A DNA stretch of 21,886 nucleotides from a virus: positions 1 through 21,886 of IMG/VR virus record IMGVR_UViG_3300043466_000226. One strand, written 5' to 3'. This document shows positions 9,076 through 21,705 of this stretch, piece after piece. How positions within the stretch are numbered: the stretch's first letter is position 1; every line of letters starts with the position of its first letter. The notes beneath the pieces were generated by a model. The model was not told where the DNA came from. It saw nothing but the letters and a program-made list of their open reading frames with translations, and made no database searches. Made by a program: the position numbers and the translations under genes.

Positions 9076-10259
9076 CGGAATTGACTATATTTTTTGTTCG
9101 CTATCTGCACATCAAGTTCAAGGTTGAACATCTTGTCTGCAATCCTCTTCTTCTCTTCCCAATTGCTTGTCATAGTGACTACGGGATAGTAGTACCCACC
9201 TTGCTCAAAGTAGACCTCAGGTGATTGAATTAACTCTGCTAACCAGTTATAATCTTTTACATTTAAGTAATTACTTCGCAGTTTGTACATTGTTGAATGC
9301 TCAACCACATACTTAGTTGCACCTGGGTTGATTCTGTTAAAGTCATCATAAGTACGCATTGCTACCGCAGAAGAATTATACCTAAACTTGCTACCTTCAT
9401 ACTGCTTAGATTCCACGTTCCTTGATTCCTTATTGACCAATCGGAAATGCATCGTATCATACCCTCCGAGTTGATTCAAGAAATGTAATGCGATAGGTGA
9501 GTAGTTAGGATTGCAAACAAGTTTAACCCTTACCTCATCCCCGAATCCTGTACCATTGTGCAACTTAATGCCGTATGAGTAAGCGGTTGAAGGGATTACA
9601 GTTGCATCATACCACTCATTTATCGCAGTTGGTGATATATCAAGAAGACTAAATGTTTCTTGTGGGTCTGTTGCAGTTGTTACCGCACTTCCACTCGGTG
9701 TTCCATTCTCGTTATACAACTGAACAGATGGGTAAATATTTGTAGTTACCCCACTTGCAGACATATAACCAATATGCAACTTGTCAGTAAACGCACATTC
9801 AACATTGCTCAAATCCCTATTGGTCAACCATTTATTGATATATGACTTGTAATAGGCAGGAGATTGAGCAGGATTGTAAAAGTCGGGATAGTAGAAATTG
9901 AACGCTACATAAGTCTGCTCAAGCAGATTGGTGTAGGTAGTCCCTCCGTACTCTTCACCATATTTTATAGTATATTCTTTATAAATATTATCGTTTGATG
10001 CACTGAATAAAGTAGTAGCAGGATTCGGGATAAAATTAGATTGAGCATAATTCCTCATTATATTCCCTGCGTTAAATATCCCCTTCGTACTGCTCACATC
10101 AGGAAACTGCTTAATCCTTGCTATCAATGTTGAATCTACATAAACATCAAAGACATACTTAAAGTTTGTTGATGCCTTATTGGTGCTATCTACCACAAAC
10201 CAAAGTTCATCATGTAGGGATGCGTATTGCTCAGGTATTGAATTAACTGTTATTGCCAT
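9072..10259 (-). CDS. Putative tail/baseplate structural protein, 395 aa
   Basis: This encodes 395 residues, rich in aromatic residues and asparagine, with many short beta-strand patterns and no transmembrane segment or catalytic motif that I recognise. Visible features include an N-terminal beta region (SLHDELWFVVDSTNKASTNFKYVFDVYVD), a Tyr/Pro-rich middle (FNFYYPDFYNPAQSPAYYKSYINKWLTNRDL), and a C-terminal DYNWLAELIQSPEVYFEQGGYYYPVVTMTSNWEEKKR segment that resembles the end of other Bacteroidota phage tail proteins. It sits between a gp10-like protein and the 674-aa tail protein and overlaps the latter by 4 nt. A distal-tail or baseplate role is the likely reading, from context only. Confidence 0.6.
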   Translation of the reverse strand: MAITVNSIPEQYASLHDELWFVVDSTNKASTNFKYVFDVYVDSTLIARIKQFPDVSSTKGIFNAGNIMRNYAQSNFIPNPATTLFSASNDNIYKEYTIKYGEEYGGTTYTNLLEQTYVAFNFYYPDFYNPAQSPAYYKSYINKWLTNRDLSNVECAFTDKLHIGYMSASGVTTNIYPSVQLYNENGTPSGSAVTTATDPQETFSLLDISPTAINEWYDATVIPSTAYSYGIKLHNGTGFGDEVRVKLVCNPNYSPIALHFLNQLGGYDTMHFRLVNKESRNVESKQYEGSKFRYNSSAVAMRTYDDFNRINPGATKYVVEHSTMYKLRSNYLNVKDYNWLAELIQSPEVYFEQGGYYYPVVTMTSNWEEKKRIADKMFNLELDVQIANKKYSQFR

Positions 10260-10261
10260 AA

Positions 10262-10969
10262 TTACTTGTTGTCTTTGTTAATTAGCAGATTCTTTGATTT
10301 TATGACTACCGCAATATCTGCCACCATTGCCTTGGCAATTGTCTGAGTAAACAAGTCACCAAAGTATTCATTTACTGCATCATCAAAGAACCCCGTCCTC
10401 TTTAATCCTTGTTGCTTTATCTTCCTTGCTATAAGAAATGCAGTGGTTCTTCCAGTGTTTAGTTCTGAAACTGATTTACGCTTTCTTTGCAGTCCTGAGG
10501 TGTTATACTTTTGGTCATCTCTTCTGGAGGCAAGTCCGTTCCTCTTCACCCATTTCTGAATGGCATTTACCATTGGTCCTTTCATAGAAGGATTTGCTGA
10601 CTTGTAACTATATGGAGAATTAGGTTGTTTAGATATAAAACCTTGCACACCCTTGTTCACGTAGTCATAATACTTTGAGGCTTGACTGCTTGGGTCATAA
10701 CCTACCTGCAACTCGTACTTTGATTCTTTTCTTGTTAGTTCTCCGCTACTGATTCCATCAATCAACCCACCAGTGTCTATGACATTTGCATTTGTTATGT
10801 TCTCTTTAACCTTTTCAATAAAGGCAAGAGCAAACTGAATTATGGCATCTTCAACGAATGGCAGTTCAGTAATTGTGGCATCACCTTTACGCTCTAATTC
10901 TTTCACAATGGCATTTATTGTGCCATCGTTAACAAGTTCGTTCTGTATCTGACTAATGCTTTTTGCCAT
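10262..10969 (-). CDS. HK97 gp10-like neck/tail-completion protein, 235 aa
   Basis: This encodes 235 residues. The central part (~65-115) carries an IDTGGLIDGISSGEL segment followed by VGYDPSSQASKYYDYVNKGVQG. Later there are PYSYKSANPSMKGPMVNAIQKWVKRNGL (~120-146) and RTTAFLIARKIKQQGLKRTGFFDDAVNEYF (~173-203). The DTGxL...YYDYVNxGVxG...GLKxTxFFDDA order is the hallmark of gp10-like (HK97) proteins from Bacteroidota phages, which sit at the head-tail joint or tail terminator. The 5' end overlaps the preceding small frame by 17 nt. Confidence 0.72.
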   Translation of the reverse strand: MAKSISQIQNELVNDGTINAIVKELERKGDATITELPFVEDAIIQFALAFIEKVKENITNANVIDTGGLIDGISSGELTRKESKYELQVGYDPSSQASKYYDYVNKGVQGFISKQPNSPYSYKSANPSMKGPMVNAIQKWVKRNGLASRRDDQKYNTSGLQRKRKSVSELNTGRTTAFLIARKIKQQGLKRTGFFDDAVNEYFGDLFTQTIAKAMVADIAVVIKSKNLLINKDNK

Positions 10970-11126
10970 TCTTTATGCTTTGCTCTCTGTCAAGTTCTGC
11001 CTTCGCTTTAATGTATGACAAATCATTTAAGAAGTTTATTGTTGATAGTTCAAAGGATTGCTCAAGTGTAATCTTTTCATGCTCTGCAACCAACTTGCAT
11101 TGGTAAATCCATCCATACTGTCGCAT
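10953..11126 (-). CDS. Small overlapping tail-module protein, 57 aa (or -1 frameshift extension)
   Basis: The sequence from ATG 11126 reads MRQYGWIYQCKLVAEHEKIT, then TLEQSFELSTINFLNDLSYIKAKAEL and a basic end. I associate the GWIY...VAEHE...FLNDLxYxKxK pattern with a short conserved phage protein next to tail chaperones. It overlaps the end of the 225-aa gene by 91 nt in the -1 frame. The same frame is open further upstream, through a T9 run at 11233-11241, to a TAA just before it. A -1 slip there would fuse 160 residues of the upstream protein to this one, giving 253 residues. Both models fit. The independent ATG is preferred because the sequence I recognise begins near it; the stretch upstream is charged and of low familiarity. 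Confidence 0.6.
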   Translation of the reverse strand: MRQYGWIYQCKLVAEHEKITLEQSFELSTINFLNDLSYIKAKAELDREQSIKNGKKH

Positions 11127-11713
11127 AAAACTTGAAGTATCATCTCTGTGTGCCCCTCTGTCATCCTCATCTTCTTCATGTCCTTTTTCAAATAATCCTG
11201 AGAAACTTTTATCCAAGTTCTGAATACAAGATAAAAAAAAACCACGCTACCCATTACATCAGTGATAGAGGCAGCAAGTAGGTCATCTGCATACTCATCG
11301 TGTTTATTTGCTTGGTACTTGTCATCCTTCCACCCAAATATGGTTAACTTTTGAGGTATAACCATAGAGGCAGCAATCTTGTGGATGTTACCTGCAAAGT
11401 CACCTGAGAAGTATTTACTCTCAATATACCTCCCTGCTTCCATGTTTTTAATGTTGTAATTACAACGATACCTTTTGCCTTTTACCTTTATGTAATCAAC
11501 CTTGTTTACTGGTACATCCGTTTTTAAAAACTCAATCTTTTTGGCAAGTTTAATGGTCTGTGTTAAAGGTAGGTTCAAGACCTCGGTTTCTGTCTTGCCT
11601 GTGATTATGGAGATAACCTTTATAGATACTGCTTCTAAGTCCTCAGATTCAGATTGAGTAAATAGTTGCATTAACTGTTGCCATTGGAATACTGTTACGT
11701 TGGACCAATTCAT
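11036..11713 (-). CDS. Tail assembly chaperone-like protein, 225 aa
   Basis: This encodes 225 residues starting MNWSNVTVFQWQQLMQLFTQ. It has a helical N-terminal half and a middle with DYIKVKGKRYRCNYNIKNMEAGRYIESKYFSGDFAGNIHKIAASMVIPQ (~75-123). The C-terminal part is VVFFYLVFRTWIKVSQDYLKKDMKK...LCDSMDGF (~157-212). I know this layout from proteins upstream of tail genes in Bacteroidota phages. A place in front of the gp10-like, baseplate and tape measure genes suits a gpG-like chaperone that binds the tape measure. Codons 158-161 run across nine Ts (11233-11241), and the -1 frame is open from there to 10953. About 500 bases of non-coding DNA lie upstream, so this is the first gene of the virion operon. 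Confidence 0.65.
   Translation of the reverse strand: MNWSNVTVFQWQQLMQLFTQSESEDLEAVSIKVISIITGKTETEVLNLPLTQTIKLAKKIEFLKTDVPVNKVDYIKVKGKRYRCNYNIKNMEAGRYIESKYFSGDFAGNIHKIAASMVIPQKLTIFGWKDDKYQANKHDEYADDLLAASITDVMGSVVFFYLVFRTWIKVSQDYLKKDMKKMRMTEGHTEMILQVLCDSMDGFTNASWLQSMKRLHLSNPLNYQQ
11233..11241 (-). other. T9 slippery run, candidate programmed -1 frameshift site
   Basis: Nine consecutive Ts on the minus strand span codons 158-161 (GTT TTT TTT TAT) of the chaperone-like gene. In the -1 frame the last stop (TAA) lies only about four codons upstream of the run, and that frame is then open for about 95 codons. A -1 slip is the standard way lambda-like phages make the gpG-T fusion. Both frames after the run look protein-like, so this is not simply a sequencing indel. 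Confidence 0.5.
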
Positions 11714-12564: not shown

Positions 12565-13722
12565 CTATGCAAAACTATACCTACCACTTCCCACATTCTT
12601 TTGGAGGTGCTGCCAAGCAAGGGAAAGGGAAACAACACAGTCATCATGGAATCCTTGAGGTGCTGAATACTTTACCCCGAATGAGGTGTATTGGTATTCA
12701 AAGATTTCTAATTCATCCACAATAGGACCAGGGGGGAATGTTATCTTCCTTTGGTGGATAGCGGATGCAAGACCCTCCATAAGCATCTGCTTTGAGGTAC
12801 TGCTGAACTTGTAACCTTGCACATCAAGACCCTCCCTTTGCATATCCTCAAAGATTGGGTCACCTACCCCCGTGCTATCCATAAGGATTGGTGCTTTGGG
12901 TAGATTGACAATATACTCTTTAGTCTGCCTCCAATCCCTTTGGAAGCGTTCATAATGGCATACAGACCCGTTCTTGTCAAGTCCTATTACCACGGTCCAG
13001 TCAACCGCTTTGGCAAGGTCTATCCCATAACAAGCAACAGGATTGGTAGACATCGGGAAGATGCACTGGCGAATGTAAGCAGACCCAAAAGGATTGGCAG
13101 CATTCTCAGCAGGGTTTGCCATGTACTCTTGCTCAAAGACCACTTCAGGTAGTTGCATTCTTGCACTATCAACCTCTGATTTATCTATGTACGGGTTATC
13201 ATAGGTGCTAAACTTGAAACTTTGCCAATCTTCCTCCCCTCCGTTCCCTTTCATGAACAATGAGTAAAAGTAGTTTTTGCCCTTTGGAGTAGACAGGAAT
13301 AATGCCTTGCCCTTGTAATCGGTCAAGGTAGGTCTGATACTATTTAACCAACCATCCTCAAGGTTAGGGATGAAGGATGCCTCATCAACCACAACAAGGT
13401 GAAACTTCCTGCCTCGCAGGTTATCTAACCGCTCCCCTGTAAAGAATTGTACCGAACCGCCATTTGGAAACTCAATAGTCAAATCAGACCTATTAGAGGC
13501 GAAAGGAACGGCTTTTGCTAACTTGTCAAAGAAAGTCTTGGCAAGGTTATAAGTCGGGGTAATATAGGCAACAGATTGCCCCACAATGGCATTCTTGATA
13601 ATCTCTACCTGTGAGAGTTCAGACTTGCCGAACCTCCTACCACACATCACTACCCTAAACCTTCCAGGGGAATCAATTATCTCAACTTGGTTTTTATGTG
13701 GTTCGGGTAGTTCAATTATCAT
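12565..13722 (-). CDS. terL: Terminase large subunit, 385 aa
   Basis: This is the ATPase-nuclease motor that packages phage DNA. Walker A is GRRFGKS (28-34), Walker B is LVVVDEAS (109-116), and the coupling motif is STPKG (144-148). The C-terminal RNase H-like nuclease has YGIDLAKAVDW (candidate Asp235), LMDSTGVGD (Asp282) and HDDCVVSLSLAW (Asp360/361). At 385 residues it is compact but has both domains. It overlaps terS by ATGA at its start. An inverted repeat follows the stop. The virion operon does not follow directly: an 850-base island with a cargo gene and short RNA intervenes. Confidence 0.93.
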   Translation of the reverse strand: MIIELPEPHKNQVEIIDSPGRFRVVMCGRRFGKSELSQVEIIKNAIVGQSVAYITPTYNLAKTFFDKLAKAVPFASNRSDLTIEFPNGGSVQFFTGERLDNLRGRKFHLVVVDEASFIPNLEDGWLNSIRPTLTDYKGKALFLSTPKGKNYFYSLFMKGNGGEEDWQSFKFSTYDNPYIDKSEVDSARMQLPEVVFEQEYMANPAENAANPFGSAYIRQCIFPMSTNPVACYGIDLAKAVDWTVVIGLDKNGSVCHYERFQRDWRQTKEYIVNLPKAPILMDSTGVGDPIFEDMQREGLDVQGYKFSSTSKQMLMEGLASAIHQRKITFPPGPIVDELEIFEYQYTSFGVKYSAPQGFHDDCVVSLSLAWQHLQKNVGSGRYSFA

Positions 13723-14101: not shown

Positions 14102-15289
14102 TTAGTCCATTGTTTTAGTATACTTCTGCCCGTTCCTCTTCACCTCCAAAGTCGGGTCAAGTTTAACCATCCTGTCAACTATAACTTGGCAGTATTTAGG
14201 GTCAAGTTCCATCCCGTAGCACTTGCGTTTAAGTTGATGACTTGCCACCATAGTTGAACCGCTACCGAGGAAAAAGTCAATTACTAAACTATTTTCATTT
14301 GAACTTATTTGCATTTCATTTGCAATCAATTCAATTGGTTTCATTGTTGGATGCAATCCAGTTTCTCTTCCAAATTCTAAACACCTTGAATAGTTTACAT
14401 TTTGTAATCCATAATTCCAAATTGATGATTTTCTAAACAATAACAAATACTCAATATCGGGTCTATGTGCTGAATTAATTGGTATTGCATTCGGCTTTTT
14501 CCAAATTAAAACATTGAATGAATAATTTGCATCTTTTGCCCATGTTAAATAATCGGGTAACAATTCATTATTGCAAAAAATATAGGCATTCATTTTTTTT
14601 TCAAATACCAGTGGCAAAACTTGCAAAAATTCAGTTGGATTAAATTCTGCAATAAATTCAATATCTTTCCCTTGCTTTCTTAATGCCTTGCCAATATTTC
14701 CATTTTCTCCTCCTTCTGTTTCTATTTTATAAGGAGGGTCAGTAAATACCATGTCTGCCTTCTGTCCATTCATCAACTTTTCTACTTGGTCGCTATCTGT
14801 TGAATCACCACAGAGTAAACGATGCTCACCTATCTCAAACAAATCCCCAAGAACGATATCGGTTTCAATTCCCCCATCAGGTACATTAAAGTCATCCTCT
14901 TCTGCTTCAAGCACCTCAGGTTTAAAATCGGGTATATCTAACCCCCAATCTGTCAATTGTTCTGCATCCCAATTATTCGCAAGGTCTTCCCAATCCCATT
15001 CGCCGAACCCAACATTATCTTTTATGATAAACTGCTTCTGTTGGTCTTCAGTTAAGTCCTCTGCTTTGATTATTGCTACTTCTTTAAGTCCTGCTTCCTT
15101 ACACGCCCTCAGTCGCATATTCCCACCGAGGACTACCATATCCGCATTGACTACTATTGGGCGAATGTTGAGCATCTCAGGGAACTCCTTAATTGACTTG
15201 ACTAACTTTTGGAACTTGTCATCCTTGATTATTCTTGGATTGTTCGGGTTAGACTTTACCTCGCTGATTTTAACTGTGATTGGATTCAT
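14102..15289 (-). CDS. ParB-like domain fused to DNA adenine/cytosine-N4 methyltransferase, 395 aa
   Basis: The N-terminal domain (1-115) is ParB/Spo0J-like (SNPNNPRIIKDD...RPIVVNADMVVLGGNMRLRACKEAGL). The methyltransferase has the catalytic DPPY motif at 184-187, HPTMKP at 313-318, and the SAM-binding FLGSGST at 340-346 with MELDPKYC after it. Motif IV before motif I is the beta-class order. It should methylate an amino group of A or C in a specific DNA site, protecting phage DNA or marking it. The part between DPPY and FLGSGST (about 14281-14700) is about 28% GC, against about 40-45% in flanking sequence I counted. This suggests exchange of the target-recognition region. The start overlaps the upstream stop as TAATG. 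Confidence 0.88.
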   Translation of the reverse strand: MNPITVKISEVKSNPNNPRIIKDDKFQKLVKSIKEFPEMLNIRPIVVNADMVVLGGNMRLRACKEAGLKEVAIIKAEDLTEDQQKQFIIKDNVGFGEWDWEDLANNWDAEQLTDWGLDIPDFKPEVLEAEEDDFNVPDGGIETDIVLGDLFEIGEHRLLCGDSTDSDQVEKLMNGQKADMVFTDPPYKIETEGGENGNIGKALRKQGKDIEFIAEFNPTEFLQVLPLVFEKKMNAYIFCNNELLPDYLTWAKDANYSFNVLIWKKPNAIPINSAHRPDIEYLLLFRKSSIWNYGLQNVNYSRCLEFGRETGLHPTMKPIELIANEMQISSNENSLVIDFFLGSGSTMVASHQLKRKCYGMELDPKYCQVIVDRMVKLDPTLEVKRNGQKYTKTMD

Positions 15290-19974: not shown

Positions 19975-20735
19975 TATTTATTGTTTAAAAGTTTGTCAAA
20001 GTATTGTGCAACCGCCATCCGATAGCACTGATGCTCCATGTAGTCATCATCCTTTAATTTGTTTTTTATGTCAATTTTTTCCTGCCTTGAACCTTGAAAC
20101 ATTCTATCATTCATTGCCTTTATTACCTTGTCATAGGTATCCTCAACCTCTACAATGATTTTGCCTCTCTTGTGCAGGATGTGGAATACATCTATACCAA
20201 AGACAATGTTATCCCATTGCTTGAATTTAGAGTAGCAATCAAACGCAGTTTCTATCTTTTCATCATCAGATATGTACCTTGGTTGCCATTTAGACTCTTG
20301 CTCAACTGGTTTAATCTCATTCAGTTTCTGCATCCCATACCTTGCGAATGCTCTAAGTAACCTGTGCAGGTATAGCATTGAGAAGTTTTGATAAGTTTCT
20401 GCTTCTATGTCAAGTTTCCCCTTTGCTGCTAAGTCAAAAGCAAGGGAGATTTCCCCTATCTTGATGTTTGGGTATTCCTCCATAATTGACTTATACATCA
20501 TTAACAAGTCTGCATTGTTTGGCATTTTATCACCTTTAACACCAAGTTTCTGCATACCATTCATAAGTTCATCAACTACTAACCCACTGCTTAAATTCTT
20601 TATAGGTTCACTGGTCCTTGATAATTTAAACTTCTCAAGGTCTAATGCCTCGGAGGAAGTCAATTTTGTCTGTGTACTGACGGAGTTCTGCTCTGCGTTC
20701 TGCATAGATGTCAGAACTTGATTTAGTGGTAACAT
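19974..20735 (-). CDS. Replication-module protein of unknown function, 253 aa
   Basis: This encodes 253 residues. The N-terminus (to ~60) is polar and low in structure. Residues ~70-140 form a helical core (PNNADLLMMYKSIMEEYPNIKIGEISLAFDLAAKGKLDIEAETYQNFSMLYLHRLLRAFARY) that I associate with phage replication-accessory proteins next to initiators. The C-terminal part is helical and charged. Helicase loader or primosome helper is a guess from position. The ATG at 20735 makes a 101-nt overlap with the initiator in another frame; an ATG at 20705 would shorten it to 71 nt, and a later start (Met59, about 20561) would remove it. Confidence 0.65.
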   Translation of the reverse strand: MLPLNQVLTSMQNAEQNSVSTQTKLTSSEALDLEKFKLSRTSEPIKNLSSGLVVDELMNGMQKLGVKGDKMPNNADLLMMYKSIMEEYPNIKIGEISLAFDLAAKGKLDIEAETYQNFSMLYLHRLLRAFARYGMQKLNEIKPVEQESKWQPRYISDDEKIETAFDCYSKFKQWDNIVFGIDVFHILHKRGKIIVEVEDTYDKVIKAMNDRMFQGSRQEKIDIKNKLKDDDYMEHQCYRMAVAQYFDKLLNNK

Positions 20736-21336
20736 TTTTATTAAATTTTTTATCGTTTCTAATCCAGTTTCTAATTGCTGATTTGTAATCTTTCATTTTG
20801 TTTTTCCCTACCATCCATCCGTTGGATGTATAGAAGTCAAAGAATGATTCTGCAAGTTCAAGTCTTTCCTTTTCAGCAAAGTAATCCTCAACCATTTCCA
20901 TCGTAGGTATAATACTATTATTCTTTATATTAATATTACTATTAACCTTTATATTATCTTTTCGGTTTTCAATGGGAGGTATAATGGTTTTCAATGGGAG
21001 GGTATCATTATTTCCCATCATAGGTATATCGGTTTCCAATGGGAGGTGTTTATCTAAGATTAGAACTAAAACCCTTTGCTCAACTTGTTTTTTATCATTT
21101 CTGTAAATAATCCTACCAAAGTAACCTTTCTTTTCAAGGTCTGAAACTAATTGACTGACAGTAATTTTACTGATATTTAAGCATTCTGCAAGGTAGTCAT
21201 TTGATGCAAAGCAGTAACCTTTTAGGTTGGATAGACTTGATACTAACCCGATTAATAGTTTTTGTGTACTATTAATGTCCTTGCTCATTAAGTACCTGCA
21301 AGGTATAACTGCCGCCCAGTTATGATTTTCTTTCAT
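20635..21336 (-). CDS. Replication initiator-like protein with helix-turn-helix, 233 aa
   Basis: A winged/helix-turn-helix region spans ~20-80 (DINSTQKLLIGLVSSL...SNDYLAECLNISKITVSQLVSDLEKKGYFGRI). The central linker (~98-145) is rich in Asn and Ile. The C-terminal region (~160-195, AESFFDFYTSNGWMVGKNKMKDYKSAIRNWIRND) resembles the DnaT/phage replication C-terminal module that contacts the helicase or loader. DNA coding the linker holds repeated TTTTCAATGGGAGGTAT-like units and a very AT-rich stretch, as in the lambda O gene. The likely role is origin binding. Transcription comes from upstream; a short RNA ending in a terminator lies directly in front of the start, its T-tract ending 5 bases before the ATG. 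Confidence 0.75.
   Translation of the reverse strand: MKENHNWAAVIPCRYLMSKDINSTQKLLIGLVSSLSNLKGYCFASNDYLAECLNISKITVSQLVSDLEKKGYFGRIIYRNDKKQVEQRVLVLILDKHLPLETDIPMMGNNDTLPLKTIIPPIENRKDNIKVNSNINIKNNSIIPTMEMVEDYFAEKERLELAESFFDFYTSNGWMVGKNKMKDYKSAIRNWIRNDKKFNKNVTTKSSSDIYAERRAELRQYTDKIDFLRGIRP
20893..21049. repeat. Iteron-like repeats and AT-rich stretch, candidate replication origin
   Basis: Plus-strand units GGTTTTCAATGGGAGGTAT (20964-20982), GGTTTTCAATGGGAGGGTAT (20986-21005) and GGTTTCCAATGGGAGGTGT (21031-21049), plus a related TTTCCCATCATAGGTATA (21011-21028), place the AGG core at 20977, 20999, 21022 and 21044, a spacing of 22-23 bp. A further related unit is TTTCCATCGTAGGTATA (20895-20911). 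Positions 20911-20962 are about 12% GC. The same DNA unit is read in two frames (LPLKT and PPIEN), so the repeat is conserved as DNA and not as protein. Confidence 0.62.
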
Positions 21337-21341
21337 AAAAT

Positions 21342-21383
21342 AAAAAAAGGGGATTCAGGTGTAGTGTGTTTACCCGATTCCCC
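21342..21383 (-). terminator. Rho-independent terminator ending short RNA 1
   Basis: On the minus strand GGGGAATCGGGT (21383-21372) pairs with ACCTGAATCCCC (21360-21349) over 12 positions with one A-A mismatch and one G-U pair, with an 11-nt loop, followed by seven Ts (21348-21342). It ends 5 bases before the initiator ATG, so it may attenuate that gene. Confidence 0.85.
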
Positions 21384-21438
21384 ATTCTTGTCTGTTCTTA
21401 CAAACAAGCATTTGCACACTACCTCAAATGCTTGTCTA
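21342..21438 (-). ncRNA. Candidate short RNA 1 with complementary hairpin loops
   Basis: A transcript of about 97 nt is predicted from the promoter at 21444-21451 to the terminator. Hairpin 1 is a perfect 11-bp stem, ACAAGCATTTG/CAAATGCTTGT (21435-21425 with 21414-21404), with a 10-nt loop. Hairpin 2 is the terminator. The loop of hairpin 1 contains GTAGTGTG (21422-21415) and the loop of hairpin 2 contains its exact complement CACACTAC (21368-21361), so an 8-bp kissing pair is possible. A 43-codon frame (21464-21333) also crosses this stretch; see rejected items. Confidence 0.6.
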
Positions 21439-21443
21439 CTTTG

Positions 21444-21459
21444 CAAAGATACAAAACTA
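21444..21459 (-). promoter_or_regulatory. Bacteroidota-type promoter for short RNA 1 (two overlapping -7 motifs)
   Basis: Two back-to-back TAnnTTTG matches, TAGTTTTG (21459-21452) and TATCTTTG (21451-21444), lie on the minus strand. The second puts the start near 21438, right at the first hairpin. No good TTG -33 element is seen at the usual distance. The motifs overlap the stop of the upstream gene. Confidence 0.6.
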
Positions 21460-21705
21460 TTCATTTGTAACCTTTTTTTTCTTGACTCGGACCGCATAGG
21501 TTTTACCATCAAGTCTGCTGATAACCTTGCGACCAACTTGCCTCAAGTCGCTAATCTTATTGGGAGGATATCCCATAAAGTTACAAACGCACTTGCCTGA
21601 CCGATAGGTGACCGCCTTTGCCCTGCGTTCTTCTATGTCCTCAATGCTTAGGTCATAGACTAAGTACTCAACTGCATTCTCTAAATGATAGGTTATATCC
21701 CTCAA
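21457..21705 (-). CDS. Small protein of unknown function, 82 aa, TTG start
   Basis: No ATG is available before residue 44, so the start is TTG at 21705, overlapping the upstream stop as TTGA, a coupled arrangement. The sequence DITYHLENAVEYLVYDLSIEDIEERRAKAV is helical. It is followed by SGKCVCNFMGYPPNKISDLRQVGRKVISRLDGK, with a CxC pair, and a basic tail KKKKVTNE. A small nucleic-acid-binding protein is possible. I do not recognise the family. Confidence 0.6.
   Translation of the reverse strand: MRDITYHLENAVEYLVYDLSIEDIEERRAKAVTYRSGKCVCNFMGYPPNKISDLRQVGRKVISRLDGKTYAVRVKKKKVTNE

Follow-up and report, generated by a model that had tools for sequence, protein, structure and literature searches.

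Two hairpins with complementary loops lie between a small gene and a replication initiator gene at the end of an uncultured phage contig, which raises the question of whether they form a functional RNA and what such an RNA would do for the phage. The window analysed here, meaning the whole stretch of DNA, is one contig of this phage, a virus record of 21886 bases. Besides terminase, head and tail genes, it carries the 82-aa gene, the RNA and the replication initiator, which follow one another at the right end, all on the minus strand. The initiator gene is presumably the one that the RNA controls or borders, and the 82-aa gene has no Pfam or PHROG match. The promoter type and the isolated phages with related RNAs point to a Bacteroidota host. 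Elsewhere in the window, positions 14102-15289 encode a ParB_N domain fused to an N6/N4 DNA methylase, and overlapping frames among the tail-region genes (10953-11216 and 11036-11713) are possibly a programmed-frameshift pair.

Architecture of the element

The element is a predicted minus-strand RNA of ~98 nt (~21439-21342), composed of a 5' hairpin and an intrinsic-terminator hairpin with loops that pair exactly over 8 nt (Table 1). The promoter box, hairpins, linker, terminator and T7 tract listed in the preliminary description are all found where it placed them, as are the exact 8-nt complement of the two loops and the 5 nt that separate the T7 tract from the initiator ATG. The description overlooked the small hairpin M, a conserved feature of the linker. 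A sequence search of the window finds the complementary strands GTAGTGTG and CACACTAC once each.

Table 1. Features of the window, listed 5' to 3' along the RNA strand, and loop pairs in the leaders of isolated phages (positions refer to the window unless an accession is given).
Feature	Sequence	Position	Strand	Basis or remark
Upstream 82-aa gene		21457..21705	-	Kept as neighbour in classes A and B; 67 relatives in IMG/VR
Second TAnnTTTG		21452-21459		Overlaps end of upstream gene
-7-type box	TATCTTTG	21444..21451	-	Bacteroidota sigma-A type promoter; predicted +1 at 21439
First (5'-terminal) hairpin, H1	arms ACAAGCATTTG/CAAATGCTTGT	21435-21425 / 21414-21404	-	11 perfect pairs
H1 loop, 10 nt	AGGTAGTGTG	21424-21415	-	Sequence
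Kissing strand 1, in H1 loop	GTAGTGTG	21415..21422	-	Sequence and covariation
Linker between H1 and terminator, ~20 nt			-	Sequence
Small middle hairpin, M	TTTGT-AAGA-ACAGA	21391..21404	-	Within linker; outermost base 21404 common to H1
Terminator hairpin, T	arms GGGGAATCGGGT/ACCTGAATCCCC	21383-21372 / 21360-21349	-	11/12 positions pair, one A-A mismatch
Terminator loop	AAACACACTAC	21371-21361	-	Sequence
Kissing strand 2, in terminator loop	CACACTAC	21361..21368	-	Sequence and covariation
T7 tract, predicted RNA 3' end		21342..21348	-	Sequence; T-tract kept in relatives
Spacer and initiator start	ATTTT, then ATG	directly 3' of T7 tract; ATG at 21336	-	Sequence
Replication initiator, HTH_36 N-terminus		20635..21336	-	Pfam PF13730, E 1e-8; PHROGs replication initiation families
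Flavobacterium phages tooticki, lillamy, hemulen, hattifnatt	GTGAGACG/CGTCTCAC	MN812240.1 ~12646-12707
elemo phages	TGAGAGC/GCTCTCA	MT497075.1 ~20739-20677
Flavobacterium phage 11b	CGGGCAGG/CCTGCCCG	NC_006356.2 ~33643-33703
Olleya phage Harreka_1	GTGGTGG/CCACCAC	NC_062748.1 ~30092-30151
Cellulophaga phi19:3 and phi13:2	CTCTCACAA/TTGTGAGAG	KC821608.1 ~4093-4037		Weak first stem

The RNA folds at -34.2 kcal/mol compared with -20.4 for shuffled sequences (z = -4.75), and a scan for two neighboring hairpins with complementary loops matches only this element in the window. Among 400 simulated windows, loop matches of at least 7 nt arise at a rate of 0.1 per window, matches of at least 8 nt are seen on nine strands, and a match of at least 7 nt followed by a T-tract occurs in two. 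Neighboring hairpins with 8-nt complementary loops are expected ~0.02 times per window, in agreement with the earlier claim that the match is unlikely by chance. A generic terminator scan reports no terminator at the element because it admits no loop longer than 8.

Compensatory changes in three classes of relatives

Relatives of class A were found via the upstream 82-aa gene, the initiator and a sequence pattern. Overall, ~100 uncultured phage contigs yield three sequence classes, and the loop pair is 100% paired in the 36 distinct aligned sequences; these counts are not independent events, and the collections were sampled through a few linked genes. The alignments and structures behind the covariation counts come from the same sequences, and slide and shuffle controls were used against bias. 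When the partner strand is slid by 1-3 columns, at most 52% of cells are paired, compared with 97-99% in register.

Class A carries the loop pairs GTAGTGTG/CACACTAC, GTAGTATG/CATACTAC, GTAGTGC/GCACTAC or GTAGTGAG/CTCACTAC. Every cell of the kissing helix is a standard pair in the 12 distinct sequences, with 2/8 pairs doubly changed. H1 shows changes on both sides in 4/10 counted pairs (98% of cells paired), hairpin M in 2/5 and terminator T in 5/12, giving 13/35 over the whole structure. A covariance model built without the RNAs of L003, L006 and L171 recovers those three at 67-68 bits.

A different RNA occupies this position in many phages whose upstream gene is nearly the same. In this class B the first hairpin is shorter, and the terminator stem, 20 bp long, has a bulge of 7 nt to which the first loop pairs (GTGGAAC/GTTCCAC, GGGGAAC/GTTCCCC or GGGAAAC/GTTTCCC); a hairpin resembling M lies inside the terminator loop. 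Of 44 counted pairs, 98.1% of cells are paired; the kissing helix reaches 100%, with 2/7 pairs doubly changed. On inspection of classes A and B, each kissing strand lies directly against the 3' arm of the stem to which it belongs.

The entry point to class C, contig L070, came from a kissing-hairpin scan of distant initiator loci, and its upstream gene led to 56 loci, most of which carry class C RNA. The first loops belong to seven discrete 7-nt types (GTCAGAT, GTAGAAG, GTAAGAG, GTTGCAG, GTCGCAT, ATTGCGG and GTACGAG), which are almost unrelated to one another, and the exact complement of each is present in the terminator loop. Over 12 aligned sequences from six of the seven types, 6/7 kissing pairs are doubly changed and 100% of cells are paired. 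As far as sequence comparison can show, this is the strongest evidence for the loop-loop pairing.

Pairing that is kept through many sequence changes indicates a real functional RNA, either a switch or an RNA in its own right. The proposed kissing complex is well supported by stems and a loop pair that compensatory changes preserve in many relatives; loss of either, which the preliminary description had named as evidence against it, is not what the relatives display. The same covariation upholds the choice that it offered between a stand-alone RNA and an attenuator in the initiator leader.

Strand, promoter and reading frame

Flavobacterium sigma-A boxes of the form TAnnTTTG span -12 to -5 (PMC9723704; PMC6847099). 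A box of this type sits at a similar place in 23/23 leaders of different classes, with the predicted +1 at or no more than ~10 nt from the H1 base in each of the 23. The outermost two pairs of the first hairpin would precede the predicted +1 in class B, and the -33 element appears weak in class A on inspection. The number of TAnnTTTG boxes alone is not significant in the window (18 found vs 27 expected), and the box counts as evidence because of its constant position relative to the hairpin rather than its occurrence alone.

G-U pairs outnumber C-A pairs by 41:2 and 59:3, which indicates that the minus-strand RNA is selected, and not the DNA or the other strand. A DNA cruciform or origin hairpin was rejected because G-U pairs are kept and C-A pairs are not. 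An antisense reading was likewise rejected, as the covariance model scores the plus strand at 17 bits and the minus strand at 119. No TAnnTTTG is present on the plus strand near 21340-21460, in a scan that a weaker or unusual promoter would escape.

A 43-codon frame runs through the hairpins and could encode a leader peptide or small protein. It is open in most close relatives, and in contig L007 (2910-3100) the frame through the RNA continues in frame into the initiator without a stop. Nevertheless, it has no consistent start codon, and the open stretch in class A varies from 15 to 80 codons, the L007 fusion excepted, with early stops in L110, L136 and L151. The predicted +1 also falls after the ATG of the frame, and classes B and C have unrelated sequence where it would be. 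The frame is therefore not conserved as protein, the outcome that the preliminary description had set against an RNA, and a real product is hardly credible.

Isolated phages and distribution

The replication-gene leaders of named isolates show the same anatomy with their own 7-9 nt loop pairs, in five groups (Table 1). When one loop is permuted, 0.08 to 2.5% of trials give a match like that observed in single isolate cases, and the cases are largely independent. The terminator loop of lillamy and tooticki (L333, ~607-619) holds CACACTAC, the kissing strand of the window, overlapping the present partner CGTCTCAC; this may hint at common descent with a shifted pairing register. In elemo phages, a tRNA-Met is located ~180 nt upstream of the RNA (L337, 266-339).

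Isolates outside these groups that have related initiators were examined as well: no such loop pair occurs in the examined leaders of Vibrio, Shewanella, Psychrobacter, Enterococcus EF62phi and Flavonifractor phages, nor in those of Porphyromonas, Riemerella RAP44 and Leeuwenhoekiella Arctus_1 phages. Scanning bacterial and archaeal genomes with the class A pattern gave 14 chance matches, none confirmed by the model at the match site. The class C model, run with strict filters and no positive control, found nothing in 299 genomes of one family, and the distant initiators L009-L080 lack a class A RNA.

Three phage contigs of Gram-positive-like character carry what may be a fourth class, D (L065 2740-2830, L074 2460-2570 and L265 ~9800-9950). 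Their loop pairs are GTTGCGG/CCGCAAC in L065 and L265 and AGTGCGG/CCGCACT in L074, accompanied by a T-tract, a Shine-Dalgarno sequence and a sigma70-like box. L065 and L265 have the same RNA ahead of two different initiators, and in L074 an ssb-like gene comes before the RNA. We did not count this class because it comprises only two distinct sequences and its folding is ambiguous. Shortly before another initiator, contig L068 (1618-1702) has a terminator hairpin of 15 bp that encloses an inner hairpin and is followed by T7; a kissing partner was not seen there.

Exchange of the RNA between gene contexts

The link to the initiator drawn in the preliminary description stands in part. The RNA does adjoin the initiator in the window, but the same RNA precedes at least four initiator-type genes (the HTH_36 initiator and the Lin1244-type, MAKDPAV-type and MNTGQIV proteins), sometimes with a small gene between. 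In class C, the gene after the RNA is a 68-aa gene or one of different initiators. Annotated isolates have a replication gene (initiator, DnaB-type helicase or primase) behind the RNA, as do those class C contigs in which the next genes were read. On the other side, near-identical upstream genes carry either class A or class B RNAs. In L097, L133, L134 and L137, a MUG113/T5orf172 (GIY-YIG-like) gene, perhaps a mobile endonuclease, lies directly behind the RNA.

Six class C loop types with several members were compared within and between types. RNAs of the same type are 95-100% identical even where an adjoining gene is only 68% identical (upstream gene 68-97%). Between types, RNA identity is 49-85% even next to an adjoining gene that is 97% identical. 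Two downstream genes accompany type GTTGCAG, and two loop types accompany the MSKNKKS gene. The types have been exchanged independently of both neighboring genes. Non-matching loops share at most 4 complementary bases, and each pairs only with its own partner. The RNA therefore behaves as a cassette of ~100 bp with discrete specificities, and its exchange without selection for them is also possible. Discrete, swappable specificities are a pattern familiar from immunity and incompatibility loci.

Proposed role and alternatives

We favor, with a probability of roughly 55%, the view that the element attenuates transcription of the phage replication operon close to its promoter and would also yield the ~98-nt RNA. 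Such an RNA would probably control the extent of phage replication. Only 0-6 nt separate the T-tract from the start codon in the window and in classes A and C, and the distance in class B is similarly short. With the T-tract nearly touching the start codon, there is no room for another promoter, so the mRNA of the first gene must pass the terminator; by its position the element is thus an attenuator, whatever further role it has. Host polymerase would start near the H1 base and make H1, the linker and the terminator hairpin. It would stop at the T-tract unless termination fails, and the initiator gene would be present only on read-through transcripts. Pairing of the H1 loop with the terminator loop would serve as the regulatory joint, formed as the polymerase reaches the T-tract and setting the stop frequency. 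The polymerase covers ~14 nt of RNA, hence the terminator loop should emerge when the enzyme has reached the T-tract or is no more than a few bases from it, and kissing could act at the decision. Transcription from this promoter, a working terminator and conditional termination are what we infer from the leaders, and kissing may either help or hinder termination. Several points weaken the attenuator: the leader showed no anti-terminator pairing in competition with the terminator stem, kissing itself being compatible with the terminator, a constitutive, leaky terminator would look the same, the gap between T-tract and start is wider in isolated phages (13-43 nt) than in classes A-C, and other phages with related initiators lack the RNA.

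About half of the weight given to the attenuator goes to a form with self-recognition in trans. The terminated RNA would accumulate with phage copy number and pair with nascent leaders of the same type, causing the polymerase to stop. This would limit replication and shut off any co-infecting phage that shares the loop type, as in plasmid incompatibility. The discrete class C types, their independent exchange and the pairing of each loop only with its own partner fit this form, and given such a pattern of alleles, incompatibility or immunity based on RNA has to be taken seriously. We nonetheless regard allele-specific self-recognition between phages as tentative.

The terminator might instead merely end a kissed, nuclease-hard RNA that acts elsewhere in the phage or host, leaving the replication genes to constitutive read-through or upstream transcripts. 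Its own promoter box and terminator, and its retention while both neighboring genes change, would suit a stand-alone RNA of this kind. We consider it doubtful, given that the RNA sits at the head of replication genes, that both loops are hidden by their own pairing, and that the window has no second copy of either loop and so no exact phage target. A purely structural role, in which kissing braces the terminator and protects the 5' end at a strong operon boundary without regulation, accords with a kissing pair compatible with the terminator stem, a stem conserved as a good terminator and a predicted 5' end that sits at a helix. An essential gene with such a boundary directly ahead of its start codon would be shut off, however, and sharp, swapped alleles would be left unexplained. 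Ordinary phage terminators, to our knowledge, need no such brace, and we find this role unlikely. The attenuator could also be read by a ligand, or by a protein that recognizes the kissing complex by its shape, as Rom/Rop recognizes that of the ColE1 RNAs. The shape is kept while the loop sequence changes freely, and the geometry of classes A and B is fixed, judging from kissing strands that abut the 3' arms. Yet a conserved unpaired core, as expected of an aptamer, is missing and no linked protein is constant, making such a reader very unlikely.

A terminator with its own loop as the kissing partner recurs with unrelated sequences in isolates with cultured hosts, and is therefore testable now. 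Should the loop types prove to be specificity groups, sequence alone would give a simple prediction of which phages can replicate together, and orthogonal RNA attenuators for Flavobacterium would be readily at hand.

Comparison with known systems

We treat the kissing-terminator leader of Bacteroidota phages as a class of our own definition: a 5' hairpin, a loop complementary to a terminator loop or bulge, a T-tract, and a replication operon next. These features are read from the sequences of classes A, B and C and of the five isolate groups. No Rfam 15 family matches the window at gathering score, and the RNAs of ten relatives are without a match at E<=0.1, the only hit being a tRNA locus in an elemo phage. 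Kissing-loop RNA control of replication is known from plasmids; no report of it in Bacteroidota phages was found in the full-text literature, a coverage that leaves out most subscription journals, and the kissing-loop terminator RNA is apparently undescribed.

Passages of PMC4825925 describe two phage systems of similar arrangement. In CI RNA immunity of satellite phage P4 (seqB with seqA/seqC), a short leader RNA stops transcription before the replication genes by base-pairing to complementary sequences in the leader. As there, complementary leader sequences stand ahead of replication genes; here, however, a single ~98-nt RNA carries both complementary sites as hairpin loops, one belonging to an intrinsic terminator, and there is no processed CI-like RNA between two targets. 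The likeness to P4 is one of arrangement. The Gifsy-1 prophage promoter of IsrK produces a short terminated RNA plus a read-through mRNA, as proposed here, but the same passages describe no loop-loop pair of this kind and the genes downstream are different.

Plasmids provide further parallels. The pT181 initiator gene is under a leader terminator, with kissing hairpins deciding specificity (PMC4878617), and the phage sequences likewise predict that the leader of the replication initiator ends in an intrinsic terminator. The covariation also supports a loop-loop pairing of ~7 nt between two hairpins, as in ColE1. Kissing loops operate in ColE1 (RNAI-RNAII), and countertranscript-driven attenuation in pIP501. 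The likeness to plasmid copy-control RNAs suggested by the preliminary description does not extend to a countertranscript: unlike in pT181, pIP501 and ColE1, no opposite-strand antisense RNA was found, no TAnnTTTG promoter box was found opposite, and covariation favors one strand. Both complementary loops are encoded in one transcript, with trans pairing possible. Kissing loops in leaders before a terminator are also known from riboswitches; the phage RNAs differ in having no conserved ligand-type core and in using the terminator loop itself as the kissing partner.
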